Below, in pieces: positions 37,172 to 62,942 of a stretch of DNA of 64,000 bases. Below the pieces are notes generated by a model. It had not been told where the DNA came from. It made no database searches and saw nothing but the letters and a program-made list of their open reading frames with translations. Source of the stretch: Exilibacterium sp. (GTDB taxonomy: Bacteria > Pseudomonadota > Gammaproteobacteria > Pseudomonadales > Cellvibrionaceae). Numbering within the stretch: the stretch's first letter is position 1; each line of letters opens with the position of its first letter. A program made the translations under genes and the position numbers. The stretch lies in contig JANQMH010000079.1 in the NCBI GenBank assembly GCA_028280195.1, positions 130,750 to 194,749 on the forward strand, given 5' to 3'.

Positions 37172-37192
37172 CTTATTGTTCCCGCAAGCGAA

Positions 37193-37219
37193 ACCGTGCG
37201 GCCGCAGCAGCCGCACGGT
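37193..37219 (-). terminator. Hairpin between coiled-coil and lipoprotein genes
   Basis: A perfect 10-base-pair stem (ACCGTGCGGC with GCCGCACGGT) and 7-base loop, 21 bases before the lipoprotein ATG and about 85 bases after the upstream stop. On the minus strand only TTTC follows, so it may cause partial termination, setting the lipoprotein level below that of the operon. Confidence 0.5.
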
Positions 37220-37303: not shown

Positions 37304-38026
37304 CTATTCGGTGCCCTGAGCACTTTCCAGCACGGGTGCATCCTGGGCTGCGGCACCGGACACCGCCCGCTGTTGTGGCTCAGATCCACGCGACGCGGGC
37401 ACCGCTTGTACGGGGAGCTGCTCAACCGGCTTCAGCAGATGCGCGCTGGCCTGTAAGTCCAGGTCTTCTATCCGGTACTTGTAGTCCTGCACCAGATTTT
37501 CGACTTTTACTTTGGCGATACCGGTAAGCGGCTCGCCTTTTCTCACCAGACTCATAAAGCCCTTTTCATCGTAAAGTACTACAAGTTCATTATTGATTTG
37601 CGTCAGCGCCTCGTTATTACTGTGACACACGTCGAAGTTTTCGGTCTGCATGGTGAGATTTCTGGCCAGTTGCGCGCTGCGCTGCTTTTCCCGCGCCAGC
37701 TCGCCCAGTCTGTCGCGCAGCGAGCCCTGTATATTGCCGTGACTTTGCTTCCACTTCGCCAGTGTGCCCTTGAGTTTTTGCTCGCGCCTGGCCGCCTGCG
37801 ACAGTTTGTCATCGGCCTCGGCCTGGTAGTCCTGGTATTCTTTTTGCAATGCCTGGAGCTGCTGCTGCAGGCTGACTTTTTCTGCATTGACCTGGCGCAA
37901 CATATACTGCGCCCGCGCCAGTGCCTTCTGGTCGCTTTGCTGCGCCAGCAGCGGCGCGCAGACCAGCATCGATACCAGCAGGCAGATGCCGGCCAGATAG
38001 GGTGAAGGTGTTTTTGATCGCATCAT
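37304..38026 (-). CDS. Periplasmic coiled-coil protein of the TPS/ExbBD cluster
   Basis: The 240-residue product has a signal peptide (about 1-28, GICLLVSMLVCAPLLAQQ), a long heptad-rich helix at about 30-150 (ALARAQYMLRQVNAEKVSLQ onward; Glu/Gln/Lys/Leu-rich), a conserved-looking VCHSNNEALTQINNELVVLY segment and a Pro/Ala-rich tail. Not assigned to a named family. Its place after the ExbB/ExbD/TonB genes recalls the periplasmic DUF3450 coiled coils of Vibrio TonB2 systems, but similarity is in layout only. The spacing of 15 bases after the porin gene shows co-transcription. Confidence 0.7.
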   Translation of the reverse strand: MMRSKTPSPYLAGICLLVSMLVCAPLLAQQSDQKALARAQYMLRQVNAEKVSLQQQLQALQKEYQDYQAEADDKLSQAARREQKLKGTLAKWKQSHGNIQGSLRDRLGELAREKQRSAQLARNLTMQTENFDVCHSNNEALTQINNELVVLYDEKGFMSLVRKGEPLTGIAKVKVENLVQDYKYRIEDLDLQASAHLLKPVEQLPVQAVPASRGSEPQQRAVSGAAAQDAPVLESAQGTE

Positions 38027-38041
38027 AACAACCCCTGACAG

Positions 38042-39703
38042 TTAAAATTTGGCCTGCACGTCTACGTGCACGGTATCCACTTCCACATCGCTTTCCAGCA
38101 CACGGCCGTCATCGTCAAACACATCGGCGGCGTCGATTTCCTCGCCGCTGATCCAGCGCAGCGCCAGCGATACGCGGTCGGTCAGATACATCTCACCGCG
38201 CAGCACATAGCCTTTGGCATTGGTGCCGCCCAAGAGAAAGTTCGAATCGGTAAAGGCATCCAGCACCGCATCACCCTCCAGATAGCGGTACTGCAGGGTA
38301 GTCCTCCAGTCGCCCCAGCGCGACATCGACTTAGTGCCGAATTCAAAGCCCAACTGATAGCCGGTATCGCGGTCGGGCACCACAAAGCCCTCACCGATGC
38401 GGCTCTGTATATCGTCGCCATCGAAGGCCAGATTGACCACGCCGTCGGCAATCACGCTCATTCTGTGTTTTTCAAAGCCGGTATAATCGTAGCGCATGGT
38501 CAGGTTTGCCAGTTCGAACTCGGAGGCGAGTGCAAACAGTTCGCGCTGCGAGCCGCCGTCGTCGGCCAGCGCGATATTCTGCAGTGTATTGCCAAACTGG
38601 TAGAACGGCGATGCCGTGGCATCGCGGCCGTCCTGGTTGACGGCGTTGTCTTCCCCCAGCACACCATCGAAATAGTAATAGGTCAGTGCCAGCTGCAGGC
38701 GGCTGTCTTCGCTGAAACTGAAGCTGTTGCCGAGTTGCGCGGCATACAGCCATTTGTCGTCATTGGGCGGCTCGAACACATCGCCGGGCAACACCGCCTG
38801 ATTGATTTCCTGCAGCGGAAACGCGCCCAGCTTGATATAGGGGTCCCAGCGCGGCGACATATCATCGACGGAGCGCAGGGGAAAATAACTGGCATTGACC
38901 CCCTCGAAGGTCATGTCATTGTCCCAGATCAGGTTGGTATGCAGCCACGGGTTGCTAAACCGCCCGCCGCTCAACTCGAGTCCGCCGGCCGGGGTGCGAT
39001 AATTGATATAGGCGAGGTCGAAGCTGCTCGCCCATTTCCGGCCGAAATTACCCATGGTCTGATTGGCGGAAACCGGGTTGCCCTCGTTGCCGGTCAACAG
39101 CCGCACACCCACCTCGACGCCCTCGGCAGGCGCCATTGTCAAGCGCAGCCGGGCACGGGTGCGCAGGCGGTGGCGGTCATCTACGGTATTGACAAGCGAG
39201 TCGCGGCCGGCGGCGTCGACACCGCCGGCGTCATTAATGTCGTTGATATCGAAGAAAACATTGTCCGGGTTGTCGCTGGGGAAAAAGCGGCCTTCGTAGC
39301 GCATGCGCACATCGCCGGACAGGGTAATGCGATTGACCCAGGCGGGCGCCCCCTCGATACCCCAGCCCTCCTCGCGGGCCCGACGCACCACATTGCCCTG
39401 AAGCTCGTCGATGACTTCTTCGCGCACAGTGGTTTTGATTTCATTTTTTACATGGCTGGGAATATAAGGCACGCGCACGCTGTTCGCCGCCTGCGCCGCG
39501 GTTTCCAGCGGCGGTTCACTGGCGGCGCGCTGCTCGCGTTCGCGCACCTTTTCCACCAGCGCCAGCGCTTTCTCCTGTGACAGTATCCCCTCGTCTACCA
39601 GGATATTGAGGATATCGGTAGCGGTAACATCCGCAAATACCTGGGGTTGAACCAGTAACGCCGTCAACCCGGCAACAACAGCCATATTATTTTTAGATGT
39701 CAT
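38042..39703 (-). CDS. Putative outer-membrane porin
   Basis: The 553-residue product has a signal peptide (about 1-24), then the short N-terminal helix DILNILVDEGILSQEKALAL followed by a coiled segment, which is the standard start of the putative-porin family (PF16930), and about 430 residues of alternating amphipathic beta strands ending in aromatic Phe (VDVQAKF), needed for Bam assembly. Motifs include ITLSGDVRMRYEGRFF and LRTRARLRLTMAPAEGVEVG. The substrate is not known. There are no TonB-box or plug features, so it is not a TonB-dependent receptor. Confidence 0.8.
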   Translation of the reverse strand: MTSKNNMAVVAGLTALLVQPQVFADVTATDILNILVDEGILSQEKALALVEKVREREQRAASEPPLETAAQAANSVRVPYIPSHVKNEIKTTVREEVIDELQGNVVRRAREEGWGIEGAPAWVNRITLSGDVRMRYEGRFFPSDNPDNVFFDINDINDAGGVDAAGRDSLVNTVDDRHRLRTRARLRLTMAPAEGVEVGVRLLTGNEGNPVSANQTMGNFGRKWASSFDLAYINYRTPAGGLELSGGRFSNPWLHTNLIWDNDMTFEGVNASYFPLRSVDDMSPRWDPYIKLGAFPLQEINQAVLPGDVFEPPNDDKWLYAAQLGNSFSFSEDSRLQLALTYYYFDGVLGEDNAVNQDGRDATASPFYQFGNTLQNIALADDGGSQRELFALASEFELANLTMRYDYTGFEKHRMSVIADGVVNLAFDGDDIQSRIGEGFVVPDRDTGYQLGFEFGTKSMSRWGDWRTTLQYRYLEGDAVLDAFTDSNFLLGGTNAKGYVLRGEMYLTDRVSLALRWISGEEIDAADVFDDDGRVLESDVEVDTVHVDVQAKF

Positions 39704-39750
39704 AACGCCTAGTGTTTCCTTAATCTGATCGCTTTGTTTGCGTGCAAAAA

Positions 39751-40386
39751 TTAAATAACCGAGGTGATTCGAAACGTAAACCAGTTATCCTGCTCTTCAA
39801 AAGGCTTTGGTCTGCTGAGGCCGCCCAGCTCCGCCAGCAGCCTTTCCAGTACCAGCTTCGCCGCACTGCTGCCCTCCAGCAGTTCGACCTCAAAGCGCGA
39901 AAAGCTGCCGTCGTCCTCCACCCACAGGGTGATTTCCGCCCGGTAGGCCAGCCGCCTGAGTTCTGCGTCCCTGATAATCGCCTTGTTGACCTCGGTTTTG
40001 ACAAACGAACTGTAACCGCCGCCGCCGAGAATACCGCTGCCGCCCTTCTTGCCCACCAGGCCAAAACCGTCGGCGCCCGCCACGCCCTCGGCGTCGATAC
40101 CCAGCTCTTCGCCCATCGACTCGTCCGGCGCATCGTCCGGCATCGGTTCATCGGGTTGCTCCTCGATCACTTCCTCCTCGATCTCCGGCTCCTCGATTTC
40201 TTTCGGCGGCGGCGGCGGGGGGGGCGGCGGCGGCGCGATTACCGTAATCTGCTGAACCACCTTCTTCTGCTGCACATCTTCTTTGAAGAACAGCTGCTTG
40301 AGATACAGCGCCAGCAGTACCGCGCCGCAGATGACGACGACGGTGATGATTGCCGGCAGGCGATTTAGCCACTTGGTTGAGGCCAT
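39751..40386 (-). CDS. TonB-like energy transducer with poly-proline neck
   Basis: The 211-residue product has one membrane helix (about 10-30, PAIITVVVICGAVLLALYLK), ten consecutive Pro at 52-61, an acidic Glu/Asp stretch at about 62-95, a Gly-rich hinge (GLVGKKGGSGILGGGGYSS) and a C-terminal domain of about 90 residues resembling TonB_C (LRRLAYRAEITLWVEDDGSF, VLERLLAELG). The proline neck is short and no classical YP motif is seen. The codons for the prolines hold a run of eight C. It follows exbD by 5 bases, so it belongs with that proton channel. Confidence 0.85.
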   Translation of the reverse strand: MASTKWLNRLPAIITVVVICGAVLLALYLKQLFFKEDVQQKKVVQQITVIAPPPPPPPPPPKEIEEPEIEEEVIEEQPDEPMPDDAPDESMGEELGIDAEGVAGADGFGLVGKKGGSGILGGGGYSSFVKTEVNKAIIRDAELRRLAYRAEITLWVEDDGSFSRFEVELLEGSSAAKLVLERLLAELGGLSRPKPFEEQDNWFTFRITSVI

Positions 40387-40391
40387 AGCGA

Positions 40392-40787
40392 TTATTTCAC
40401 CAGCTTCTGCGTTACCAGTCCCAGCTGATTGATTTCAACCCGCCCCAGAACATCCAATACGTCCACCACCCGCTGGTACTGCACGGTGGCGTCGGCCTTG
40501 ACCACTACCGGCAGTTCCGGGTCGACCGCCTTGTACTGCTGCAGCAGCGATTCCAGCTGATCCAGCGATACGGGATAGGCATCGAGAAAAACCGAGCCGT
40601 CCTGGGTGATCGATATGGCCTTGGTTTTCGGCTCGCTCAAACTCGGCGTATTGCTGGCCTTGGGCAAATCCACCTTGATGCCCTGCACGGTGGCGGTGGT
40701 GAGAATAATGAAAATGATCAACAGCACATAGGACAGGTCCAGCATCGGTGTGACGTTGATATCGTCGTAGATGTCTTCTACGTCCAT
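40392..40787 (-). CDS. exbD: Biopolymer transport protein ExbD
   Basis: Stator-type subunit of the ExbB-ExbD proton channel. The 131-residue product has a single membrane helix preceded by INVTPMLDLSYVLLIIFIIL, with the proton-accepting Asp at residue 17 (Asp25 in E. coli ExbD), and a periplasmic domain with IKVDLPKAS and LPVVVKADATVQYQRVVDVLD. It is placed between the ExbB fusion (3 bases) and the TonB-like gene (5 bases), so the three should be made together. Confidence 0.93.
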   Translation of the reverse strand: MDVEDIYDDINVTPMLDLSYVLLIIFIILTTATVQGIKVDLPKASNTPSLSEPKTKAISITQDGSVFLDAYPVSLDQLESLLQQYKAVDPELPVVVKADATVQYQRVVDVLDVLGRVEINQLGLVTQKLVK

Positions 40788-40790
40788 GGC

Positions 40791-42635
40791 TTATCCTCCT
40801 TCCCGGCCGTGATACTCCGCCAGGCGGGTAATGAATTCGTCACTGAATACGCGCATATCGGCGATGGACTCCTTGATTCTGGAGGTCAGATAGTTGTAAC
40901 CGAACAGCGCCGGAATCGCCACAGTCAAACCCGCCACGGTGGTCAGCAGGGCCGCCGCCACCCCCGGGGCGATAGCGGCGATATTGACATCGCCGGTCAG
41001 GGCAATCGCCGCAAAGGTAATCATTACCCCCAGTACCGTACCCAGCAGGCCGAGAAAGGGCCCGCCGCTGATGGCGATGGTCAACAACACCATTTTTGCG
41101 TTCAAACGCTGAATCTCGCGCACCATCTGTGCATCCAGAGCCGCCTTGATGGCGTCGACCGCCTGCGCGGACAAGCCGCTGGCGCTGGCGCCGACACTCT
41201 TGCCGATACGCCCCTGCACCTCCTGAATACCGCGGTGATAGAGGCGATAAACCGGCGAGCTTTGAAAGTGATCGTGCTTGCCGAAGATGGCCTGGGTAAT
41301 GGGAGAACTCTCCATGGCTTTGTCCTCCTCGGTGTCCTCGTGATCCAGCAGCGCCGGATCGCGATTGCCGAGCCCGGTATAGGCGGCGAGAAAACCGGCA
41401 TTGTCTTTGAGCACACTGTTGATATAGAGCATCTTGCCGATCATCACAAACCAGCTGAGTACCGCCATCACCGCCAGCAGCATAATGATGGTCCAGCCGC
41501 TGTCGCCCATACTGGTCAGCAAGACGGTAAAAATATTCGCACCGCCGCTGCCGGAACCCAGCTGCTCGGCCGGCTGCGGTTTCAGCAGTTTACTGGCCAC
41601 GCCCTGGCTGCTGACCGCGGCTTTGATCCAGTCGCCGTTGCGCGCCACACTGTCGATGCGCAGTTCGTCGATCTCACCGACAAAACCGTTGTCGGCCTGC
41701 GGGTCGGCACCAATTACCCAACTGCCGACGAAGGGCTGCAGCTCGATGGTGGTAAAGGTAACCTCATTGCCGCCGACGAGAATACTGAGGCGCTGCGGTG
41801 ACACCACCAGCGCCAGGTGCTGCCAGGTATCGGCGCTGATGGCGCTGGCCGGCGGCGTCTCGTAAGTCGCTCCCGACAGGGTCTGCAGGCGCGCGGAAAT
41901 ACTGTTGCCGTCGAGTTCCAGCGCCAGCGAGCTGCTGCCGTCGGTGCGCTCCAGCAGGCGCACGCGCTGCTGGCCGCTGGCGGGCTTGAGCCACATCGAC
42001 ACGGTCAGCCCCTTTTGCGCGGTGACATTGAAAGACGGCATATCGGCGACGGTCAGGCGGTTGCCGGCGGCCAAACTCAGACCGGCGGCGATCAGGCTCT
42101 GGTCCGTTACCGTGGCATCATTGCTGGCGGCGTGGGCGCCGTAGGCGGTGGCGTCCTGCGGCAGCGCCTCACCGGCACGGAAATGGTAGACCAGCGCCGT
42201 ATCGGCGTCGTAGCTGCCGGCCGCATCCTGGTTGCTGACCGCCTCGGCATTGCCGTAATACATCCAGATTCGTTCCGTATTGATGCCGCCGGTCACCTGG
42301 GGAAGCTTCACCCAGATATAAATCAACTGATTGATCAGATCGAAAGACTCGACATGGTGCTTTAACGGCGTGTTGTCATCGCCGCCGATAAAACGGATAT
42401 CGGACAGGTCCTCATTGACCAGGAAAAAGTCTTCAAAGTTACCGGTGTGCAGTTTCAGCAGCACCGTGACATCGTTATTGGTCTCGGTCAGGTTGGCGCC
42501 GTTGGGAGAGGCATCGATCGCCACCGCCATGCGATAGGGCCACTCGTCGTTCCACCAGGCCAGCGCGGCGCCACTCCACGATGCGAGGCAGACGAAGGCC
42601 AGTGCGGCCCGCAGCAGCGGTTTAAAAACACACAT
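40791..42635 (-). CDS. DUF2341-LamG-ExbB fusion proton channel
   Basis: The 614-residue protein joins sensory or binding modules to an ExbB channel. Signal peptide about 1-26; DUF2341 at about 27-140 (WWNDEWPYRMAVAID, then INTERIWMYYGNAEA); a LamG/concanavalin-like domain at about 160-345 (GLTVSMWLKPASG, WQHLALVVSPQRLSILVGG, GEIDELRIDSVA); a membrane helix at about 370-400; and a MotA/TolQ/ExbB domain at about 460-605 with ISGGPFLGLLGTVLGVMITF and APGVAAALLTTVAGLTVAIP. Ordinary ExbB is about 240 residues. It starts 2 bases after the TpsA stop, showing direct coupling. The exported part should lie in the periplasm. Confidence 0.9.
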   Translation of the reverse strand: MCVFKPLLRAALAFVCLASWSGAALAWWNDEWPYRMAVAIDASPNGANLTETNNDVTVLLKLHTGNFEDFFLVNEDLSDIRFIGGDDNTPLKHHVESFDLINQLIYIWVKLPQVTGGINTERIWMYYGNAEAVSNQDAAGSYDADTALVYHFRAGEALPQDATAYGAHAASNDATVTDQSLIAAGLSLAAGNRLTVADMPSFNVTAQKGLTVSMWLKPASGQQRVRLLERTDGSSSLALELDGNSISARLQTLSGATYETPPASAISADTWQHLALVVSPQRLSILVGGNEVTFTTIELQPFVGSWVIGADPQADNGFVGEIDELRIDSVARNGDWIKAAVSSQGVASKLLKPQPAEQLGSGSGGANIFTVLLTSMGDSGWTIIMLLAVMAVLSWFVMIGKMLYINSVLKDNAGFLAAYTGLGNRDPALLDHEDTEEDKAMESSPITQAIFGKHDHFQSSPVYRLYHRGIQEVQGRIGKSVGASASGLSAQAVDAIKAALDAQMVREIQRLNAKMVLLTIAISGGPFLGLLGTVLGVMITFAAIALTGDVNIAAIAPGVAAALLTTVAGLTVAIPALFGYNYLTSRIKESIADMRVFSDEFITRLAEYHGREGG

Positions 42636-42637
42636 GT

Positions 42638-45600
42638 TCAGGTTCCCGTGTCAATTAGCTCAATGGTAATAAAGGCCGTGCCGCCATCGGCGTCAGCCCC
42701 GGAAGCGGCGGCAGCCACCGCATTCTGGGCCGATTCCGTGGCCGCGTTGGCGGCGTCGCCGACCCCGGCCACCGCGGCGCTGACCGTGGTATCGGTGGTC
42801 ACACCCACCGATACCCCGCCGACATTGATATTGTCGGCGCCGCGCACCTCGGCGGCGGCAATAAACAGGTCGCCGGCCGATTCGATACCCGCCTCGCCGG
42901 CGTCGACTATACCCAACGCAGTAGACAGAAATGTTGCACCGGGTCCCTCGGCCAGGCTGTAGAAGCGCTGTGCACTGCTGAGTTCTTCACCGGTGCTGCT
43001 GCGGCTGCCGGAGGTGCGGATACCGCTGCCGGACACTGCCGGCGGCCGCACCACGGTGATGGCGCCGGTCTCGACGCTGATCTGGAATTCCGCCGGCGGT
43101 GTCACAAAGGCGGTTTTGGCGCCGCGACCGGCATCGATATCGCCGAAGCTCGACCACAGATTCATATCGCCGCCGGCCAGGCTGAAGGAGCGCGACTCGT
43201 TGACGTTGTAGGCGTCGGCGACAATGCCGTTGACATCGCCCAGGCCCAGCGCCAGCACACCCTGCTCGTCGGGCGCCTTATCGATCTCCAGTGCCTGCAG
43301 TTGCGCGGCGGCCAGCCCCACATCCACCGAACCGGCCGGCGCCATCACGTTCACATCACCGCCGGAGCGGCTGCGGATAACGGAAAACACCAGGCTGATA
43401 TCGCCGCCGGGCTGTGCCTGCGGATCTGTACTGAAATCCTCTCCGGTGCCGGCCTGCCAGGCGGCGAATACCTCTTCGATGCTGTCGAGTTCCCTGCCAT
43501 CGCGGCTGCCGAAAGTGACTTCGCCGGGGCTGCTTATCTCACCGGAAACGATGGCCTGGGTTTTGTCCACCATACCGGCGATGGCAGCGTCGAAATCAGC
43601 GCCGAAAAACATGCGCTGAGCGGTGTAACCGCGTTCGAAATTCACCAGGCTATTGCCGGCATTCAAGCCCTCGCGGCCACCCTGTTTGGTATGTTCGACG
43701 GTAATACGCTCGGCAATCAGCAGCTGCCGCGTGCTGTCGGTGGCATCGAATGTCGCCACGGCAGTGTTCAACTGGGTCGACAGCGGCTGCGCGCTGAAGG
43801 CTTCCAGGCTCTGCCCGGCGGGCAACTGTGCCACCAGATCCGCTTCGCGATCCGGTGTCAGCAGGTACTCCAGGGCAATCAGGCTGCCGATGCCGTTCCA
43901 GTAGTCTTCAAATGCCTGCCGGCGCTCCTGTTCAGAGGCAAAACCGGCCTCGCCGAGAGCCGGAGTGGCAAACAGAATATCGCCGTTGTCGACGAAGAAC
44001 CCGGGATCGGCCAGCGCCACGTCCTTCATCGCACTGACTGAAACCCGCAGCTGCAGCGTCGCATCAAACGCCGACCAGTCGGCGAGGGCCTGCTGCAGAT
44101 TGTCGTAACTTCTGCCCGATGCGCGGCTGACGCTGTCGATCATAATACCGTAGGCATCCGACTCCGCCCCGGTGACGGCGCCCATCTGTGCGAACCAGTC
44201 GACGGCGGACAATTGCTCGAGGCTGTCACTGTCGAGATTGAAATCGGCCAGCGAGGCAATGGACTGGTTGCCGTCGACGCCATCGCCCACCAGCGCCTTG
44301 TAATCACCCCGGCGGTTAAAACCGGCATAGACATGGACACTGGCACCGGCGCTGGGCAGCGCCGGGTTTTCCAGATTGCCGATACTCTCGATACCGCCGG
44401 TGGTACCGAGATCGATATCGCCGCCGGCGCTGACAATCAGATCGCCGGGGCCCGCCAGCTTGATACCTTTGGCGCCGGTCGGTTCCAGTCCCTGACCGTT
44501 GTCTCTGATCGAGACCGGGAAAAGAATATCACCGGTGGCCACAACCTGACTGATATCACCACTGGCGCCGTGCTGTATGTCAAAGGTGGTGTTGATGATA
44601 TCGCCACCGGCAAACACATCGACCTGCTTCGGTATTTCGAACTCCAGATCCAGGCCGTCGCCAATGTCACCGGCCAGGGCGAATATGCCCACCCGCCCGC
44701 TGCCGCTGCGATCGATCAGGCTCTCGCTGTGCGCGCCTTCGACCACGGGATTATCCAGGCGGGCCAAGGGGTTGCTGGTATCGGTCGGCCTGCCTAAACT
44801 GTCGCGCACGCGTATCGCGCCCTCTGGGCGGAACGCATCGGTAATCGTCGGCACCACATCGGCGGTCAGGTCCGGCATTCTGAAAGTGACATTGTCCCTG
44901 CCGGCCAGAATGTCAGCGCCGGCAGCCAGGGTAAAATTCGATTGCGCAGAGGGATATAAATACAGGTTGTTCTCGTCCAGGACGATATCACCGCTCAATG
45001 CACTGATTTCCACCACACTCGGCAGCAGGGAAAAACGTAAATCGCGCGTGTCCTGATAGACCGTGCGGAATTCGTTAGCGGGCAAAAACGACTGCACGCC
45101 ATCTCTGCCAGGTTTGAGCGTGACAGCACTGGCAACCGATGTCAGCCTCACCGCAGTGGTATCAAAGCCATAGACAAAAGTCGATGCCTGCGATTCAAAG
45201 CCGCCGGGCAGGCCGACGATTGCCCGCTGCGAACGGGATGCCGGCAGGCTGAAAGTATTGACGATGGCATCGACGTCGAGGTCCGCACCGGCCAGCAGGG
45301 TCATCTCCGTGTCGGAGCCCAACAGCAGAGACGAGCCCGCCAGGCTGTCGTTGGCACCTATTGCACCGAAGGCTCTGACATTGATGGCTGCGCCGTCATT
45401 GGCAAAACTGCTGTGATAGATATTGGCCCGGCTGTTCACTGTCAGTGAGCCGCCGGACAACAGCTCGAACTGGCGGTCCGCTGTATAGCCCAGGCCCAGC
45501 CCGGGTGTGGAAAAGCCGACATTGTCGATATTGCCGCGGGCCGCGACCTCGATACTACCGCCGCCGACCGCATGGATACCGCCCTTTATCTGATCGACCG

Positions 45601-48600: not shown

Positions 48601-51600
48601 CCGGGGTGATGAGCAGAGCGCCGGGTAACAGGGCGTAGTTGGCCGGCAACACCGTATAGCTGCCGTCGGCGAGCTGGTCGGAGCCGGACACTTCAAACGA
48701 GGTGCCCCAGGGAATGCCGCTGCCCTCGAATTCGACCCGGTCAAACGGCGCGTAACCGGACTGGTGCTCAGGCAGGATAACGAAGCCCTCGGTATAGGGC
48801 CGGTTGACGAGGATATCACTGCTGCCGCCGAGGCCGGCGACAAATTCGCGCCCGTAAATCCGCCCGCCGCCGGACAGATCGATCTCGCTGCCCTCGGCCG
48901 CTTCAATGGCGGGGGCATTTACCGCCACGACCTTTTCCGGCAGGCTGTCAAAGCGCACCGGTGCGCCGCTGCTGCTGAGTTCGTAGACCCATGAAACACC
49001 GTCGGCCTCGATACGCCCGAGCGGCACATCGCGCGTGCCGGCAACGCTCAAACGCGCCCGCTGCCCCAGCCTGACGGTGTCGGCGGCATTGAGGGTGATG
49101 GCGCCAAAGGGGTTGTCGATGGTGCTGTCGATGACAATGGTGCCGGCATTGATTTCCAGATCGGCCCCCACCGACAGAATCGGGCTGCTGTTACTGCCGG
49201 TGCCGGCAAATTCGAATACGCTGTCTGCGCCGACCAGATCGAAGCTGTAGTCGCTCAGGGTTTCCCCCCACATCAGCGGTGCGGCAAGCAGGATATCCGC
49301 AGCGGTCGTCAAGCCGCTGCTGCCCGGCGTGGTATCCGTGCTGCGGTTGAGCGCACTGCGCAGGCGCACACCGCTACTGGCCAGTATGGCCAGTTCGTCC
49401 GCGCCGGACACTGACAGGTTGCCGAAAAAATCAACCAGTTCGGCATCGACCAGCAGTGATCCCGTTCCCTGCTCCGGGGGGATCACAACCTGCAGGTTCT
49501 GCGTCGCATCCGCCGACTGGCCCAGCTGCACATAGGGCGCCAACAGCTCCAGATCAGCGGCCTGCAAAAAAAGATTCGGCGTGTCCAACACCAGTTCGGT
49601 GGTGGCGCGGATCAGGGTATCGCCGCTGACTGTGATGCGGTTGTTGGCCGCCAGCCCGCCGGCGATGGAGTTATCGACGTCCAGTATCATGCTGGCGGTA
49701 TGACTGCGATTGAGATTGCCGGTGGCGATATGCCCGAGACCGGTGAATTCAACATCGATGGCATCTCCAAAGGCCAGGCCATCAGTGGCGCTGGCCACAG
49801 CATCCTCGCCCAGTATCAGCTGCAGCGACGGATAGTCCCGGTTGGCATCCGTCTCCGTTGAGATAGTTTCACCGAGACGGGTGGTGGTGATATCGTTGGT
49901 CAGCAGATAACCTTGCCGGCCGCCGCCGTAACCCTCGCCGGCATCGCCGAAGTCAATGGTGGCGGCAATATCAAAGCCCTCCTCCGCGGCCACGGTAAAA
50001 CTGCCGGCCGCCAGGGGCGTTCTGATATCCACCAATGCGCCGTTGCTGTTGTCGCCCGAAACAATGCGCCGTGTGGTTTCCACAACCGTGCCGGACAGAT
50101 CGATACGGGCCTGCTCGGCAACCAGCGCATAGCCAAACAGTGCGTTTAGCGCCAGACTGCCGGCATCGACGAGTTTCTTTTCCGTCACCAGCGTGTTAGT
50201 GGGAATATCAATGGCCGTCGCACTTAAGTCGATATCGGCGTTGTCGCCTACCAGCATGTAGTTACTCAGCTGGCTCTCCTCGAGGCGCACCTGCTGCAAG
50301 GTCGCGTTGACACTGCCCCCGGCTATTTTTATCTCGCCATCGAGCAGCAAACGGTTATTGGCCAGTAAATCCACCGACGAGGCGGCCGGCCCGACGATGC
50401 GCGAACCGGCCTCCACGGTCAAAATGCCGGCCGCGTCATTTTCCTCGCTGGCGCGCAGCGCATCGACAATCAACTCGCCGGAACTGGCCAGGTAGTCGGG
50501 CAGCCGCGCAGCGCGCAGCACACTGCCGGCATCGGCGGCGGAAGCGGTGTTAAAAAAATCCGCATTCGCCACCAGACTGGCGTGGCTCAGGTCTATGTCG
50601 GCGTCACTGCGCAGCGTGGCATTGCCATCCACCGCGACGAAGCGATAGGAACCGACCTGGGTGCTGTTAAAAAATGTGTTGTCAATGCGCAGATCGGCAG
50701 CGAACTGCGAATCGCCAAAATCGCCGATGGTGACATCGGTGGCTTCGATCGTTAAACGGCCGCCTTTATCGCCGTCCAGTGCACTGACATTCAAGGGCCC
50801 CTCGATCGCCAGCTCTGCACCTCCGGCGTCCCGCCTGGCCGACAGTGTGATATCACCGGCTTTACCGATAGCCAGTGCGCCGGTGGTGGTCGCCCGGGCA
50901 CCGGCATCGGCAACCAACGCCGCTGTCCGGCCGAGTTCCAGCCGCGCACTCGCCTGCAGACTGATATCACCGGCATCGATCAGCAGGCGCTCCTGCAGGC
51001 CGGCGGACAACTCCGGGTTGTCGTTTACCCATGCCCCGCGGGTGTCGATGGTGCCGGATACCCGCAGCGTGCCTTCCAGACCATTGGGGTCCTGCGGGGC
51101 CTCGCCCACCTGCCGCAGGGCGACATCGCCGCCGCTAGTGCGAATATCACCGAATACATATACACCCCTGCCCGCCAAGCCCAGGGAGGTGCCCTGGCGC
51201 AGGCGCAGGCTGCTGTCGCGTTCCTGCACCACCAGCCCGAGGCCGTTTTCGATAGTGAACTGGGCCGCGCCGCTGTTTTCGATCAAGTCCCTGGACAGCT
51301 GCAGCTCCTGGTCGACAATTTGCTCGGCGACCGCTATCGCCTGGTCGACGATAAAGACATCGTGATTGTCATTGGCGCCGGCAAAAACCAGGTCGATACT
51401 GCCACCGACCGGCAAGTTGGCACCCTCGCGCTGAAACCGCCCGACCCGGGTGCCGGCCAAAAACTGCGCGTCACCGGCAATGTGCTGATGCGGTGCATTG
51501 ATAGTGATGGCACCGGCACCAAAGCCTTCAAAGTAGGCGTCGCGGTAGTAGCGGCTAACGGTGGGCGTAGGGCGAAAGCTGTTTATCTCCCCCCACTTCG

Positions 51601-53404
51601 GGTCCATCAACAGCTGGCCCTCGCTACCGGACACCCCGGCATAGGGATCGAGGGGATTGGCTTCACTGATATCCACCAGGCCGTTGCCGCCGAGTAAGCG
51701 CGTGGTTTCGACCACACCCGCCTCATAACTGACAATACCACCCGACACATCGATTACCGCAGCCTCATCGATAGTGACACTGCCTTTGGCGAGGATATCC
51801 ACACTGCCGCCGCCGGCCGAGCGCTCACTGGCGGTTTTTTCTATGTTTTCCAGCCCCTCGGTCCAATCGAACAGCGGCGTGCCTCTGCGAATATCCACCG
51901 ACAGCGTGCTGCGCAGCAGGACACCGCCTTTTTGTTCGGGGGCATCCCGCAATTCGTTGGAGGTGATAAAAAAATCGATGGTGTTTCTGTCGGCCGATAC
52001 CACGGTATCTTCGGTGCCTGAAACATCGATGACGCTGCCGCCACCCATGGCAAAAAGCGCATCGGTGTCTTCAGCAGCATTGAGATCGCCAATGGTGTTT
52101 TCGCGGGCGCGAACCGTTACCTCGCCGCTGGGTGCAACGATCGAGGCGCCCTCCTCCATCACCACATAGCGCCCTTCGATATTGACCTGGGACTTGGGCT
52201 GGTCCAGGCCGTCGGCAGCGGTGGCCGCGGACCGATCGATGGCGATCTCCATACTGCTGCCTTCACGCAGCGATACATCGCCGGCCTCGCGGCCGACGGC
52301 AATTCGCTCGGTAACCGGCACTTCGGTATTGACATCGAAGTACAGCGCCTGACGCTCCAGCGGATCTTCGCGAAACTGGCTGGTGATGAACAGTTCGGCC
52401 CGATCCCGCGCCAGAATACGTATGCTGCCGTTGACATCGACGGCGGTGCTCGACTTGATCTGCCCGGCCTGTACGATCTCGCTGGCAACCAGGGTGACGT
52501 TACCCAGATTGGCCGTCAGCGCGCCGGCATTGACGACCGCGCCGCGGGCGCCGTCTTCGCGATCGCCGGAATCCACCTCGATCAGATAACCGCGATAATC
52601 GCCGTCGAGCGGATTGGTCAAGGCCAGATAGACATCTTTGCGCGATCCGGCCAGCACCACCTGACCGCCATCGCTGTCGATACTGCCCTCATTGATGACT
52701 TCCGGGCCGGCCAGCAGAATCGGTGCCTGATCACTGCGGATCTGCGCGCCCTGCTGGACAATGATGCGCGGCAGATCCTCGCTGCCCTCGGCGAGATCTT
52801 TGCCGTTGACCAGAAAAGCCTCGCCCCGGTTGATGGCATTGAACAGGGGTTCATTTTCAAACCGCGCCAGCTGCTGCTCGGACAGCTCGCCGTCCATCGG
52901 CGCACCGTTGAACTCCATGGCCGCGGCAATCAGCCCGTGAGTATCTATCTGGGCGTTTTCACCGAAGATGATGCCGTTGGGGTTAATCAGCCAGCAGGCG
53001 CCGTTACAGTTCAGACTGCCGAGAATCTGGCTGGGGGACTGCTGCTGGATGATATTGAGCGCAACCGCCTCACTGTTGGGCTGCTGGTAAGTGACCGCGT
53101 TGCGCTCGCCGATGTTGTAGCTGCCCCAGTAAGCCAGCAGGCGCGCCGTGTCCTGATCGACAATCAGATTGAGGCCGTCTGCAGAGACCCGCAGTTGCGC
53201 CTCACCGGATTTTATGCCGTCTTCGGCCAGCTCCGGCAGCATGTTTTCGATGGTGATGGGAAGATTGAGATCGTCCAGGTAAGAACCGGTATTGGGATTG
53301 GCTCTCCAGCGATCTGTAGGGCGCGGCAGGTCCTGCGCCAGCACGGTAGCCGGCAGGGCAAATTGCGAGACCACCAAGGTGACCAGTACACGCTTGGAAA
53401 ACAT
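42638..53404 (-). CDS. Giant two-partner-secreted exoprotein (TpsA, filamentous haemagglutinin type)
   Basis: The 3,588-residue protein has a signal peptide (FSKRVLVTLVVSQFALPATVLAQ) and a TPS/haemagglutination-activity domain in the first 250 residues, with LNIIQQQSPSQILGSLNCN, two Cys at 133 and 137, and INPNGIIFGENAQID at about 140-154. The rest is a long beta-helix-like array rich in Gly, Ala, Asp and Ser (GDI, AGGDI, LLAGG patterns), without strong sequence repeats and with almost no Cys. No surface-anchor motif is visible at the C-terminus (FITIELIDTGT). The ATG at 53404 follows GGGGGAG. It is likely an adhesin or matrix scaffold exported by the TpsB gene upstream. Very long frames on the opposite strand are shadows. 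Confidence 0.9.
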   Translation of the reverse strand: MFSKRVLVTLVVSQFALPATVLAQDLPRPTDRWRANPNTGSYLDDLNLPITIENMLPELAEDGIKSGEAQLRVSADGLNLIVDQDTARLLAYWGSYNIGERNAVTYQQPNSEAVALNIIQQQSPSQILGSLNCNGACWLINPNGIIFGENAQIDTHGLIAAAMEFNGAPMDGELSEQQLARFENEPLFNAINRGEAFLVNGKDLAEGSEDLPRIIVQQGAQIRSDQAPILLAGPEVINEGSIDSDGGQVVLAGSRKDVYLALTNPLDGDYRGYLIEVDSGDREDGARGAVVNAGALTANLGNVTLVASEIVQAGQIKSSTAVDVNGSIRILARDRAELFITSQFREDPLERQALYFDVNTEVPVTERIAVGREAGDVSLREGSSMEIAIDRSAATAADGLDQPKSQVNIEGRYVVMEEGASIVAPSGEVTVRARENTIGDLNAAEDTDALFAMGGGSVIDVSGTEDTVVSADRNTIDFFITSNELRDAPEQKGGVLLRSTLSVDIRRGTPLFDWTEGLENIEKTASERSAGGGSVDILAKGSVTIDEAAVIDVSGGIVSYEAGVVETTRLLGGNGLVDISEANPLDPYAGVSGSEGQLLMDPKWGEINSFRPTPTVSRYYRDAYFEGFGAGAITINAPHQHIAGDAQFLAGTRVGRFQREGANLPVGGSIDLVFAGANDNHDVFIVDQAIAVAEQIVDQELQLSRDLIENSGAAQFTIENGLGLVVQERDSSLRLRQGTSLGLAGRGVYVFGDIRTSGGDVALRQVGEAPQDPNGLEGTLRVSGTIDTRGAWVNDNPELSAGLQERLLIDAGDISLQASARLELGRTAALVADAGARATTTGALAIGKAGDITLSARRDAGGAELAIEGPLNVSALDGDKGGRLTIEATDVTIGDFGDSQFAADLRIDNTFFNSTQVGSYRFVAVDGNATLRSDADIDLSHASLVANADFFNTASAADAGSVLRAARLPDYLASSGELIVDALRASEENDAAGILTVEAGSRIVGPAASSVDLLANNRLLLDGEIKIAGGSVNATLQQVRLEESQLSNYMLVGDNADIDLSATAIDIPTNTLVTEKKLVDAGSLALNALFGYALVAEQARIDLSGTVVETTRRIVSGDNSNGALVDIRTPLAAGSFTVAAEEGFDIAATIDFGDAGEGYGGGRQGYLLTNDITTTRLGETISTETDANRDYPSLQLILGEDAVASATDGLAFGDAIDVEFTGLGHIATGNLNRSHTASMILDVDNSIAGGLAANNRITVSGDTLIRATTELVLDTPNLFLQAADLELLAPYVQLGQSADATQNLQVVIPPEQGTGSLLVDAELVDFFGNLSVSGADELAILASSGVRLRSALNRSTDTTPGSSGLTTAADILLAAPLMWGETLSDYSFDLVGADSVFEFAGTGSNSSPILSVGADLEINAGTIVIDSTIDNPFGAITLNAADTVRLGQRARLSVAGTRDVPLGRIEADGVSWVYELSSSGAPVRFDSLPEKVVAVNAPAIEAAEGSEIDLSGGGRIYGREFVAGLGGSSDILVNRPYTEGFVILPEHQSGYAPFDRVEFEGSGIPWGTSFEVSGSDQLADGSYTVLPANYALLPGALLITPESSSGGVGEGFNSRNRFGAEVVSGRFSSAGQVGAANWSGFRVEPGSVVNERAEYRITDADAFFAFDQPGTRPEENGRLVVTADQSLQFGGAILSSLTSPVGVSFDLAASGDIVIGESPVDGALLVDPNLFASIDADSVLIGGERSWQGDAWGVAPLARSVTFDGADIATQELLVTADEEVALQNNSRIDSTAAPSFSGNTWRPGNRGVTALFSTTAGSSLDLSQVSDPDGAFVLQQGSSVTAGGAIGIAYDGVDSLAQLSLGGGQAETRLQVAADTIVVGDTAAGAAIDGELLQSAQLSELKAGSTIAFNQSLTAALTELVLRSRRIDIDEAVDISLSASQSITLIGDSPVDLAADTPAAASSLALQAAQIHIQSGRADDESEASFLFADAAVTSLTATESLNTSGTVGLSASGDMNIAANIIGARGFSEFSAGARGSLALTQYSAAPPLDDPGRIFSPGAIFHFDGDQAVSVDTRIIARSGYIDIASKHGDAVLGENASLDVGAYRVAFPDQVRSAPAGTIAVRAAGDLSVADPTAFIFGSAEQSGTEGQLALLSGGQLSLAGGGYDGSIGQWSAGGVDLTLQAGSIAAGMDNVALLNGNGFDGDIDILLTGAGEDLLLGSDDSLSGANIRLATLSGELTIAGDLEATGATEKVVLYGGAGVNVADSATVRVAASEAALSVPSIPSILSIQSPEADVQVAAGAGLTLAGGLEIVKSAADTLTRVVVDMADTVGGTISLLLSDSVARAAIDQQDLDALAGDLINLADATDASVFISAGQPLAVRPLLDIYATDSLSVSALDLTGLRTAAGEAGVLQLRAAGDISINGGINAATDTLVGPVSTQILLQDDSWGINLIAGSDPASAYAYSDFRAGSGSITLGGNAFVQTGTGDIQVFAAGDFTLLGDSYIAALGKTDYLQDDFFFPGRLLPAWGDRIYSDLYPVLPDFSGFSRESGDIRMDIGGNIRGEGSSQTPATFIQRLSVDDFVVNNVDYSGIRTWTLAVDQIKGGIHAVGGGSIEVAARGNIDNVGFSTPGLGLGYTADRQFELLSGGSLTVNSRANIYHSSFANDGAAINVRAFGAIGANDSLAGSSLLLGSDTEMTLLAGADLDVDAIVNTFSLPASRSQRAIVGLPGGFESQASTFVYGFDTTAVRLTSVASAVTLKPGRDGVQSFLPANEFRTVYQDTRDLRFSLLPSVVEISALSGDIVLDENNLYLYPSAQSNFTLAAGADILAGRDNVTFRMPDLTADVVPTITDAFRPEGAIRVRDSLGRPTDTSNPLARLDNPVVEGAHSESLIDRSGSGRVGIFALAGDIGDGLDLEFEIPKQVDVFAGGDIINTTFDIQHGASGDISQVVATGDILFPVSIRDNGQGLEPTGAKGIKLAGPGDLIVSAGGDIDLGTTGGIESIGNLENPALPSAGASVHVYAGFNRRGDYKALVGDGVDGNQSIASLADFNLDSDSLEQLSAVDWFAQMGAVTGAESDAYGIMIDSVSRASGRSYDNLQQALADWSAFDATLQLRVSVSAMKDVALADPGFFVDNGDILFATPALGEAGFASEQERRQAFEDYWNGIGSLIALEYLLTPDREADLVAQLPAGQSLEAFSAQPLSTQLNTAVATFDATDSTRQLLIAERITVEHTKQGGREGLNAGNSLVNFERGYTAQRMFFGADFDAAIAGMVDKTQAIVSGEISSPGEVTFGSRDGRELDSIEEVFAAWQAGTGEDFSTDPQAQPGGDISLVFSVIRSRSGGDVNVMAPAGSVDVGLAAAQLQALEIDKAPDEQGVLALGLGDVNGIVADAYNVNESRSFSLAGGDMNLWSSFGDIDAGRGAKTAFVTPPAEFQISVETGAITVVRPPAVSGSGIRTSGSRSSTGEELSSAQRFYSLAEGPGATFLSTALGIVDAGEAGIESAGDLFIAAAEVRGADNINVGGVSVGVTTDTTVSAAVAGVGDAANAATESAQNAVAAAASGADADGGTAFITIELIDTGT

Positions 53405-53479
53405 AGCTCCCCCTTTTGAATTGAAGCAGCGGCGCCTTGAAGCAGCGGCGCCGCTTGGGCGCCGCCGGAAATCCCACAT

Positions 53480-55057
53480 CTAAAACTCAAATCGCCAACT
53501 GGCCCGGGCGCGGAAGGTATCTTTGCTGACTTCGCCCTCGTCCTTGAGGGCCAACCCTCCGTCCAGTTTTATATTCCACTGATCGGCCACCGTCGCCTTC
53601 AGGCCCAGGCCGACGCTGTCGATAAAAATATTGCCGGCTTGATCCGCCAGCGCTTCGTTTAAATACACCTTGGCGGCATCGTAAAAAAAATGTCCCGACA
53701 GCCCGGACAGTAAGTGCCAGTCTCCGGCCAGCGGCGGTGTCGCCAGCTCCAGCCTGCCGATAAAACCATAGTCACCCTGAATCTGCGATTCGAAGTAACC
53801 TCTGACGCTGGTGATACCGCCGGCACTCATCTGTTCGTTATTGACCAGGGGCGACTCGCTGATCTGGCCGCGCAGGCGATGGCTGAAACGCCACTGCCGC
53901 GGCAGTTGATAGTTGCGGGTCCAGTCAAACTTCCAAATGCCGAAGCTGGCACCCGCCTGGGACTTTTTCTCGTTGAACTCTTCGGAATCGTTGAGCAGCC
54001 GGGAGCCGAAACTGAAGCCGGTCGAGAAGCTGTCGGTTATGTTGCCGCTGCGGTGGAACAGATTGTACTGGGCTGAAAAAGTGGTATAGCTGACCGGCGT
54101 CTGGCGCACTTCGCCGCCGGCAAACACCAGGTCTTCATCAAAGTCTTTGTAATCAATACCGGTGGAGATGCTGTGCACGGCACTTTTGCTCTGCGAAATG
54201 GGCTGCACCCAGCGAAAACCGAAAATCTGCCCCTCGCCGATGACATTGATATCGTTAATGGCGGCCAGTTCGGAGTCCGACAGCACTGCATAGGCAGCCA
54301 GCTTGGCGCCCTTGTCGCCAAACGGGAACAGATAACTGGCGGCCAGTACGTTGACCTCCTCGGTATCTTCCGGCGTGATCTGCATCTGCAGTGAGGCTTC
54401 GTGATGGCGTTGCCACAGATTGCCATAGCGCAAATCCGCCGACACCCGCATATCCGTGGTATTCTCGGTATGGTAATTGGTCATTTCGATACCGCCGTGC
54501 AGTGGAAATTCATCGGCAACATTCAGATCTACATCCACCGTGCCGGGCACCGGACCCGCCTTCAGGGACGGCACTACCTTCAAATCCCTGTTTAGCTGAT
54601 TGGATTTCTGCACATCGGCCTGCAGCGCATTGATGTCCAGCACCTGGCCCGAACTCAGTGACGGAAAGCGCTGGCGAATGCCCTCGAGTGAGAAATAGCG
54701 CGAACCGGCCACCCGCACCCGCCGCACCCGCGCCTCTTCCACCTGCAGGCGAATCACGCCGCCGACTACGTCCTGTTCCGGTACACTCACCGCCGTCGCC
54801 GGATAGCCCGCCTGCCGATAGAGTTGTTGCACAGCCCCGGCAGCTTTGTCCACGTCCTGAATGGTGCGCGCCGCACCGAGGTAAGGCGACAGCGCCCGCT
54901 GCAGGGCTTCGGGGTCGATACTTTCCACCCCATCGACCCTATATTCCCAGATATCGATGAAAGTTACCGCCGCGGCGACAGCGGGCAGCAGCATCAAATA
55001 AACAGTCAAATAAAAACTTACGGCTAATTTAGCGGCGTGTTTTGACATAAATGGCAT
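53480..55057 (-). CDS. ShlB/FhaC-type TpsB outer-membrane transporter
   Basis: Omp85-superfamily partner that exports TpsA. Product of about 525 residues: a signal peptide, two POTRA domains at about 35-190 (VTFIDIWEYRVDGVESIDPE; AGYPATAVSVPEQDVVGGVI; VRRVRVAGSRYFSLEGIRQR), then a 16-strand beta barrel with the ITSVRGYFESQIQGDYG motif (VRGY/F loop) and terminal Phe (ASWRFEF). The start is uncertain: ATGs at 55057 and 55048, neither with a clear ribosome site. It is 75 bases upstream of the TpsA gene, the usual order. Confidence 0.9.
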   Translation of the reverse strand: MPFMSKHAAKLAVSFYLTVYLMLLPAVAAAVTFIDIWEYRVDGVESIDPEALQRALSPYLGAARTIQDVDKAAGAVQQLYRQAGYPATAVSVPEQDVVGGVIRLQVEEARVRRVRVAGSRYFSLEGIRQRFPSLSSGQVLDINALQADVQKSNQLNRDLKVVPSLKAGPVPGTVDVDLNVADEFPLHGGIEMTNYHTENTTDMRVSADLRYGNLWQRHHEASLQMQITPEDTEEVNVLAASYLFPFGDKGAKLAAYAVLSDSELAAINDINVIGEGQIFGFRWVQPISQSKSAVHSISTGIDYKDFDEDLVFAGGEVRQTPVSYTTFSAQYNLFHRSGNITDSFSTGFSFGSRLLNDSEEFNEKKSQAGASFGIWKFDWTRNYQLPRQWRFSHRLRGQISESPLVNNEQMSAGGITSVRGYFESQIQGDYGFIGRLELATPPLAGDWHLLSGLSGHFFYDAAKVYLNEALADQAGNIFIDSVGLGLKATVADQWNIKLDGGLALKDEGEVSKDTFRARASWRFEF

Positions 55058-55331
55058 GAGAAAGCTTTGATGCTGTAGGCAAAAGATCCCGTAAAGTAGC
55101 AGACCCAAAAGACCTGAAAATGAATTTTTTATGTATTTATTGTTGCAAAAAAGATGAATAAAGTGCCGCTATCGTGCGACTAGAGCCGCGACGCGATCGC
55201 GCATGAATTTATTGTTTGTTTAATGGCCTCGAATCGACCGCTGCGGTGTTTTTAATAATATCGGCAACAAGTTTTTATAACCAAGCGCGATGAACTTCCC
55301 GGCAACAGCACCGGGCCATAAAAATAAAAAA

Positions 55332-55352
55332 GGGGCGGTATTGCACCGCCCC
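55332..55352 (-). terminator. Strong intrinsic terminator of the PstS-like gene
   Basis: Perfect 8-base-pair stem GGGGCGGT-ATTGC-ACCGCCCC followed on the minus strand by TTTTTTATTTTTATGG. It lies 30 bases beyond the stop at 55382 and separates this operon from the TPS operon downstream. This is the clearest intrinsic terminator in the window. Confidence 0.93.
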
Positions 55353-55381
55353 CGTATCGACTGACTAAGCGAGGGGATCGA

Positions 55382-56875: not shown

Positions 56876-56926
56876 AGCTTTCCTCAAACTGACTCTAGGA
56901 GAAATAAGGGAAGAAACAGCCACAAC

Positions 56927-60304: not shown

Positions 60305-60324
60305 GATAAAGAGCAGCTTAGCCC

Positions 60325-62079: not shown

Positions 62080-62095
62080 CAGACGGGTAATCGCT

Positions 62096-62914: not shown

Positions 62915-62942
62915 GCGCTGCCGATATACCCGGGAAAAACTT

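Follow-up and report, generated by a model that had tools for sequence, protein, structure and literature searches.

A Pdt-type two-partner secretion locus that encodes its own ExbB-ExbD-TonB motor and a giant exoprotein with a C-terminal tag

Described relatives of the locus

Two-partner secretion (TPS) is the textbook case of outer-membrane protein export without an outside energy source. Here we analyze a TPS locus in a stretch of 64,000 nucleotides from Exilibacterium sp. (contig JANQMH010000079.1, positions 130,750 to 194,749 of the forward strand; hereafter, the window), in which the transporter TpsB and the exoprotein TpsA are encoded together with an ExbB fusion protein, ExbD, a TonB-like protein, a porin, and a periplasmic coiled-coil protein. 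The locus holds a gene set of the known Pdt type. We tentatively favor, at somewhat less than an even chance, a reading in which this Pdt-type TPS locus has a dedicated motor whose TonB grips a tag at the tail of TpsA and in which proton-motive force drives the last step of export, release, or retention.

The Pdt TPS cluster of Pseudomonas aeruginosa runs lapA, lapB, pdtA, phdA, pdtB, exbB2, exbD2, tonB4, PA0696, and PA0697 onward (PMC2729926, PMC7035377, PMC4971064, PMC9769906; here and below, published statements are those of the accessible parts of the papers cited). Its exbB2-exbD2-tonB4 motor is called "still uncharacterized" in print (PMC2729926, PMC7035377, PMC9769906). LapA and LapB (PA0688, PA0689) are DING-like proteins with phosphatase activity that, like PdtA, are on at limitation of inorganic phosphate (Pi) (PMC9769906, PMC2225411), and Pi limitation raises pdtA and PA0696 alongside OprO and OprP, two phosphate porins (PMC9769906). 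Set against these published descriptions, the window likewise groups the genes for TpsA, TpsB, ExbB, ExbD, TonB, and a putative porin; PstS/DING-family proteins lie at the preceding P. aeruginosa locus numbers, and a PstS-like gene precedes the TPS genes here; and the PpiC-type and YbjN-type genes of the cluster have counterparts in other loci that we read (L016, L045, L048, and L014). The window differs in having TpsB-TpsA before ExbB with no phd-type gene between them, in a PstS-like protein far diverged from LapA, and in that Hxc-type type II secretion and vreAIR genes are not among the 37 window proteins scanned. A first-pass annotation, made from the letters of the window alone, had proposed a candidate undescribed system; the gene set, however, was already described in P. 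aeruginosa (PMC2729926, PMC7035377, PMC9769906), and that part of the proposal falls. Its account of a TPS locus with its own ExbB-ExbD-TonB motor stands, as does the lack of a plug receptor: Pfam searches of 37 window proteins, those of the locus included, recovered no plug-domain (plug-barrel) TonB-dependent receptor.

Like the canonical TPS pairs FhaB-FhaC and CdiA-CdiB, the locus encodes a type Vb system, with a TpsA that carries an N-terminal TPS domain and a TpsB that combines POTRAs with a ShlB/FhaC barrel; a structural model of TpsB (database copy P0248) matches CdiB and FhaC. It differs from them in the DUF3739 domain and the tail tag of TpsA, in its private motor, and in that motor-linked TpsBs mostly have no room for the usual H1 helix and linker. 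With TonB-dependent transport it shares the MotA_ExbB channel, the membrane aspartate of ExbD, and a TonB built in the usual order of transmembrane helix, Pro-rich stretch, and C-terminal domain; it departs from such transport in having no plug-barrel receptor at the locus and in the large periplasmic DUF2341 plus laminin-G-like region of ExbB. The nearest functioning parallel is SiiAB-SiiE of Salmonella SPI-4, where a proton channel of the Mot/Exb/Tol type is likewise encoded with, and serves, one giant adhesin; deletion of the channel left secretion of SiiE into the supernatant unaffected and diminished the invasion of polarized cells, by a mechanism called unclear (PMC12607715). SiiE, however, exits through an ABC-driven type I system, and the partner domain of SiiA resembles peptidoglycan-binding proteins (PMC12607715). 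No type I component (ABC transporter, fusion protein, or TolC-like channel) is among the seven genes of the locus. The SprB adhesin of Flavobacterium, driven by GldLM, is likewise a surface adhesin powered by a proton-driven motor, but it belongs to type IX secretion and gliding and uses another motor family. A literature search covering few subscription papers recovered none that combines TPS with a TonB box and POTRA, and none on DUF3739; it did not cover the primary PdtA papers of Faure et al.

Coupling of DUF3739 exoproteins to the motor

To follow the locus across genomes, we used 276 genomes of the window's class and a phylum sample of 397 genomes. DUF3739 was recovered above its cut-off in 18 of the 276 class genomes. 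DUF2341 was found in 23, in 17 of which it lies in an ExbB-sized frame; all 17 also have DUF3739, and ExbD and TonB accompany ExbB in each locus read among them. The 18th DUF3739 genome, G086, has ExbD, TonB, and the porin at a contig start. The phylum sample gave DUF3739 in 19 genomes, 13 of them new with respect to the class set; the fusion ExbB was verified in the loci of 12, while the 13th, G490, has the end of ExbB followed by ExbD, TonB, and the porin, again at a contig start. The failure to detect the DUF2341-ExbB in G086 and G490 was traced to contig ends, and a cognate motor accompanies DUF3739 in 31 of 31 genomes. The first-pass annotation had raised the possibility that TpsA and the motor and porin genes might occur apart as often as together; with a motor in every genome that has a DUF3739-type TpsA, this is not the case.

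Two simpler explanations of this association were rejected. Chance neighborhood is ruled out by recurrence (for any DUF2341 match, 17 of 18 versus 5 of 258; Fisher p 9e-22); the five class genomes with DUF2341 and without DUF3739 have frames of 234 or 1,093 to 4,506 amino acids (aa), judged by length only. Nor is the motor a general part of TPS: TPS exoproteins occur in 91 of the 276 class genomes, and 73 of these 91 are without the DUF3739 type, which is confined to 18. The linkage is often close: 16 of the 18 class genomes and 10 of the 13 others have their DUF3739 and DUF2341 matches no more than 25 kb apart on the same contig. Gene order is variable (TpsB-TpsA-ExbB, TpsA-TpsB-ExbB, TpsB-ExbB...-TpsA, divergent, or apart), and coiled-coil relatives stand beside the porin in most loci but were not found in a few (e.g., G243, G508, and G599).

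The motor proteins retain the channel residues of a TonB-ExbB-ExbD energy system. ExbB opens with a signal peptide and a WW...W start, followed in turn by DUF2341, a laminin-G-like domain, and the MotA_ExbB channel, in which threonines 533 and 566, presumably significant as channel residues, are conserved in 41 of 41 aligned sequences. The ExbD motif with the membrane aspartate (Asp17) is present in 44 of 44 relatives; both sets include a few motor copies without TpsA. DUF2341 itself has been described as an appendage of unknown function (PMC12505986). The TonB-like protein of the window gave no Pfam match of its own, whereas PF13103 was found on many of its relatives. Its model has a transmembrane helix, a disordered Pro-/Gly-rich stretch, and a confident C-terminal domain (predicted local distance difference test [pLDDT] about 96) resembling TolA-III and TonB domains (PDB matches at probability 1.00, the best E value being 3.8e-3 and none under 0.001). 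These relatives and this model settle its identity as a TonB-like protein despite the missing Pfam match. An alignment of 44 TonB-like sequences has 12 invariant columns, five of which fall in a Gly-rich segment; this segment, at about residues 95 to 122, lies between the Pro-rich stretch and the C-terminal domain and is highly conserved while modeled as disordered.

The window's genome holds a second, diverged cluster (L016, on contig C5) with an AraC-type regulator, TpsB, ExbB, ExbD, TonB, porin, coiled-coil protein, and a PpiC-like gene, and with tpsA running off the contig end; a TpsA end with DUF3739 on contig C108 (L017) is probably the continuation of this tpsA. A further TPS pair of the same genome (L072, on contig C19) has a 2,372-aa TpsA without a DUF3739 match, which by eye ends without the tag described below.

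The C-terminal tag and its candidate partner

The DUF3739 exoproteins share a distinct C-terminal layout: DUF3739 is followed by a variable low-complexity linker and then by a short, strand-like tag, usually within 20 residues of the C terminus, with the consensus [S/G/A]-F-[L/I/V]-[T/S]-V-[E/D]-V-[L/I]-G-F-G. A weight matrix of 11 columns was derived from the tails of 140 exoproteins (119 from a database search, 20 from fetched loci, and that of the window, whose database copy was dropped), and we scored each protein by leave-one-out, training without the scored protein and without sites sharing 9 or more identities with its site. The tail site was the best-scoring site of the protein in 139 of the 140, which overlap in ancestry and partly in content and so are not 140 independent cases, and the second best in the remaining one; a median of 9 residues follows the tag. 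As controls, we took C termini of TPS exoproteins without DUF3739, hand-picking 44 among the matches listed and fetching 40, of which 8 were dropped as their contigs end before the stop. The 32 readable tails, chosen regardless of neighboring motors and in a few cases from genomes that also hold a DUF3739 exoprotein (one, L107, with masked letters and one, L109, possibly in a wrong frame), scored at most 5.8, versus at least 10.6 for the tag. A tag common to all TPS exoproteins is thus ruled out (0 of 32 control tails), and within the sets compared the tag appears restricted to the DUF3739 type. The phylum genomes added 17 distinct TpsAs (18 rows, with one gene twice), of which 15 score 10.6 or more. 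Some longer TpsA ends (L150, L157, L160, L165, and L175-L179) run on for about 40 to 65 residues past the tag and often have a second strand-like stretch of the VQVLGAG type.

We then compared tag distances with those of each protein region of the locus, correcting for the mean rank distance across the other proteins and obtaining p values by permutation. With 17 loci, the TonB C-terminal domain gave the highest partial r (0.50, p 0.004; jackknife range 0.39 to 0.55), followed by the TpsB POTRA (0.29, p 0.05), the other regions being at or below 0.22 and the porin at -0.18; an initial version of the test, made on 16 loci without permutations, had given 0.54 for TonB and 0.48 for POTRA. With 27 loci, the TonB C-terminal domain (r 0.35, p 0.006) was the only region below p 0.05, POTRA standing at 0.16 (p 0.11); this set leaves out G033, G480, and L009-L011 (no TpsB in the stretches read), G566 (TpsB split), G086, and G490. 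Co-divergence therefore favors TonB as the putative partner of the tag. ExbD, the porin, and ExbB are not favored by the same test, and neither is the coiled-coil protein, in its case by the 16-locus version only.

Most TpsB proteins are predicted to carry an N-terminal helix, H1, across the pore; H1 is dispensable, and FhaC requires the linker of 30 residues behind it (PMC5422565). The model of the window's TpsB has a signal helix at residues 2 to 26 and then the first strand of POTRA1 directly at residue 31, the distance from signal core to POTRA1 being about 2 residues. The median of this distance is 21 residues for 17 motor-linked TpsBs versus 57.5 for 24 controls (30 were taken, 6 had no POTRA match, and one of the 24, L149, is in fact motor-linked, the others being included regardless of their neighbors), and a median of 19 in 105 of 119 database relatives, which were selected regardless of motor linkage (one had no POTRA match and 13 no clear signal core). 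H1 and the linker, usual in TPS though not strictly defining, are thus not accommodated by the window's TpsB, and motor-linked TpsBs usually appear to leave no room for them, so that in most of these the resting pore would have to be held by some element other than H1.

The elements of our favored reading that come from sequence are the gene set, the retained motor residues, the tag and its apparent restriction to the DUF3739 exoproteins compared, and the usually short TpsB N terminus. TPS export begins with the N-terminal TPS domain at the POTRAs, and the tail is hence the last part of TpsA in the periplasm. The C-terminal domains of TonB and TolA bind partner peptides (TonB boxes in the one case, TolB and colicin peptides in the other) by strand addition, and several solved complexes of such domains with partner peptides are, by title, among the PDB matches of the TonB-like model. 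In this reading, TpsA would exit N terminus first through TpsB; the TonB C-terminal domain would take up the tag as an extra strand; and ExbB-ExbD, by moving TonB, would pull, free, or reseat the exoprotein in a pore that mostly does not contribute a plug helix. A pull by TonB could retain or retract the filament, and a release by TonB could free its last segment, a direction that is not readable from sequence. By the parallel with SiiAB-SiiE, retention or release, rather than bulk export, would be expected to fail without the motor. The first-pass annotation had named TpsB/TpsA or the porin as targets of the motor; each is possible, and the evidence points most to the TpsA tail. A bolder formulation, possible but less likely than not, is that of a Ton-driven type V branch whose exoprotein carries a TonB-box-like element at its C terminus, with proton-motive force acting on the substrate instead of on a receptor. 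It would power the last stage of export, the release, or the retraction of a giant surface filament that scavenges phosphate, by way of a TpsB pore whose own plug is gone.

Several observations weigh against the reading in which TonB acts on the tag. The contact of TonB with TpsA is a prediction from sequence, and TPS export is held to need no outside energy source; the word proton is absent from the accessible part of a review of TPS (PMC5422565). In zebrafish embryos, the virulence of a P. aeruginosa tonB4 mutant equaled that of the wild type (PMC2729926). The 10 added loci taken alone give TonB an r of 0.11 (p 0.31) and the TpsB POTRA 0.44 (p 0.06). The tag of the window itself, AFITIELIDTGT, belongs to a deviant subtype that has no GFG; the tags of two TpsAs from a single alphaproteobacterial family are weak, with scores of -0.4 and 6.9, though a similar stretch is present; and in most longer exoproteins 39 to 65 residues follow the tag. 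Three of the 17 motor-linked TpsBs retain 48 to 101 residues before POTRA1. Finally, 3 of the 18 class genomes have a second DUF2341-ExbB-ExbD-TonB set without a nearby TpsA, and on contig L013 ExbB, ExbD, TonB, and the coiled-coil protein occur with no porin found and no TpsA within 5 kb upstream.

As to the three motor sets without TpsA (L076, L077, and L078), they are second copies in genomes that also hold a TPS-linked set; by eye, their neighbors are V-type ATPase-like genes (L076 and L077) and type II secretion-like genes (L078).

Phosphate neighborhood, alternatives, and significance

In 17 of the 18 class genomes, the first TPS gene is preceded on its own strand, at a distance of 25 to 453 bases, by a PstS-like gene (324 bases from the tpsB ATG in the window); in the 18th, G133, the contig ends there, and the copy in G086 is cut by a contig end. 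The PstS-like protein of the window gave weak matches only, to the PBP_like_2 and PstS models. The loop R..[GS]SGT, which we take to be a PstS feature, is present in 13 of the 17 proteins, and two tandem copies in G243 are clear relatives of solved DING and phosphatase proteins. Among the 13 added genomes, six (G389, G508, G599, G566, G480, and G530) have PstS-like relatives beside TpsA or TpsB, that of G530 at the far end and on the other strand; the upstream stretches of the remaining added genomes were only partly covered. None was found beside the second cluster of the window's own genome or in L014 and L015. Beyond the PstS-like gene, a relative of the window's PEP-CTERM-type protein occurs in 13 of the 18 class genomes, some by weak matches. 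The PstS/DING-like neighbors and the Pi regulation in P. aeruginosa point to phosphate or phosphorylated compounds as the purpose of the system; by this contextual evidence, the surface structure, together with the PstS/DING-like protein and the porin, probably serves their acquisition.

These neighbors also bear on a different role for the motor, energized uptake, in which TonB would act on the Porin_5 channel or on an assembly of porin and coiled-coil protein and bring in a phosphate compound or polymer that TpsA and the PstS-like protein capture outside the cell, the tag only anchoring TpsA. The PstS/DING-like neighbor, the position of the porin after tonB in most loci read, even where the TPS genes are elsewhere, and the rise of pdtA and PA0696 at Pi limitation beside OprO and OprP (PMC9769906) would all fit. 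The porin, however, has no plug domain by Pfam, and no solved-structure relative of it was found; a motor with no porin found exists on contig L013, in G008 and G480 the porin adjoins TpsA with the motor elsewhere, and the divergence of the porin does not track that of the tag (-0.18), though a link between TonB and the porin need not show there. We regard uptake as unlikely, if a serious contender.

Less probable again, in our view, is that the tag works as a stop or anchor by binding to TpsB, at its POTRAs or in its pore, during exit, with the motor acting on TpsB, for example, by opening the pore or freeing a jammed exoprotein. The standing of POTRA as the second-best correlate of the tag in 17 loci, and as the best in the 10 added ones, speaks for it, as does the fact that in known TPS systems some TpsAs stay associated with the transporter (PMC5422565); but TonB outranks TpsB in both the 17- and the 27-locus tests, and the TpsB N terminus before POTRA1 is short and variable, with, by eye, no conserved motif for TonB to hold. 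Regulatory hitchhiking of TPS, motor, and porin, each with a phosphate-starvation function of its own and with no contact among them, would suit their expression in one Pi- and VreI-controlled regulon in P. aeruginosa and the loose gene order (the DUF3739 and DUF2341 matches are separated by 13.7 kb in G219, 19.5 kb in G119, and 23.4 kb in G008, and G273, G389, and G480 have them on different contigs), but it is improbable given a motor in all 31 DUF3739 genomes, while 73 of the 91 TPS genomes do without that type, and given a tag found only in the DUF3739 type, which it does not lead one to expect.

The features of the locus are collected in Table 1. Checking of the open reading frames (ORFs) and Pfam matches confirmed the seven co-directional minus-strand genes at the positions of the first-pass annotation, and their coordinates reproduced its intergenic gaps (15, 47, 5, 3, 2, and 75 bases from the coiled-coil gene to the TpsB side), the start of the ExbB gene 2 bases past the TpsA stop, and the 3,588-aa length of TpsA. 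Added to it here are DUF3739, the tail tag, the PstS-like and PEP-CTERM-type upstream neighbors, and the second cluster in the same genome. No sigma-70-like promoter was found in the stretches scanned.

Table 1. Features of the TPS locus and its upstream neighbors (window coordinates)
Feature	Coordinates	Strand	Basis
Periplasmic coiled-coil protein, no Pfam family	37304..38026	-	ORF; Pfam scan
Porin_5 porin	38042..39703	-	Pfam
TonB-like protein: transmembrane helix, Pro-/Gly-rich stretch, TonB/TolA-like C-terminal domain	39751..40386	-	Relatives and model
ExbD, Asp17 kept	40392..40787	-	Pfam
ExbB fusion (periplasmic DUF2341, laminin-G-like, MotA_ExbB)	40791..42635	-	Pfam: DUF2341, Laminin_G_3, MotA_ExbB
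DUF2341 in ExbB	42213..42410	-	Domain match
TpsA exoprotein, 3,588 aa from internal ATG, signal peptide	42638..53404	-	ORF; open frame reaches 53479; database copy P0008 = 3,588 aa
C-terminal tag of TpsA, AFITIELIDTGT, deviant subtype without GFG	42641..42676	-	Tag weight-matrix scan
DUF3739 domain of TpsA, far end	42794..43174	-	PF12545
TPS secretion domain of TpsA	52442..53200	-	PF05860, TIGR01901; residues 94-346 converted to window coordinates
TpsB transporter (ShlB/FhaC family, two POTRAs, barrel)	53480..55057	-	Pfam: ShlB PF03865 and POTRA_2 PF08479; open frame to 55108
Terminator-like stem between PstS-like gene and tpsB, 10 pairs and T-run	55331..55353	-	Consensus scan only
PstS-like (phosphate-binding-protein-like) secreted protein, conserved upstream neighbor	55382..56923	-	Weak PF12849 and TIGR02136 matches, below cut-offs; synteny
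PEP-CTERM (VPLPA-CTERM) protein, conserved upstream neighbor	56927..57700	-	TIGR03370 above cut-off; synteny

On the far side of the coiled-coil gene, 87 bases beyond it, a 922-aa ORF (34448-37216, minus strand) has a lipoprotein-like start and PKD and choice-of-anchor-D-like domains; a relative of 811 aa likewise follows the coiled-coil gene in L013. At the other end of the window, divergent plus-strand genes (58967-63842) with Wzz-like, ParA-like, and AAA ATPase matches resemble the start of an exopolysaccharide cluster, and together with the PEP-CTERM-type gene they suggest a matrix context.

As far as the literature searched goes, five findings are new: the link of DUF3739 exoproteins to the motor (31 of 31 genomes), the tag at their tail, the co-divergence of this tag with TonB, a TpsB that mostly has no plug, and the conserved phosphate-binding-like neighbor. 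A branch of TPS that is never without a proton motor in the sampled genomes, with a tag on its cargo that the other TPS exoproteins compared do not have, would illustrate a way for energy of the inner membrane to reach a secreted protein. It would turn a TonB system of P. aeruginosa that has been called uncharacterized into a question of the binding of one peptide, and it would tie giant exoproteins to the acquisition of phosphate.

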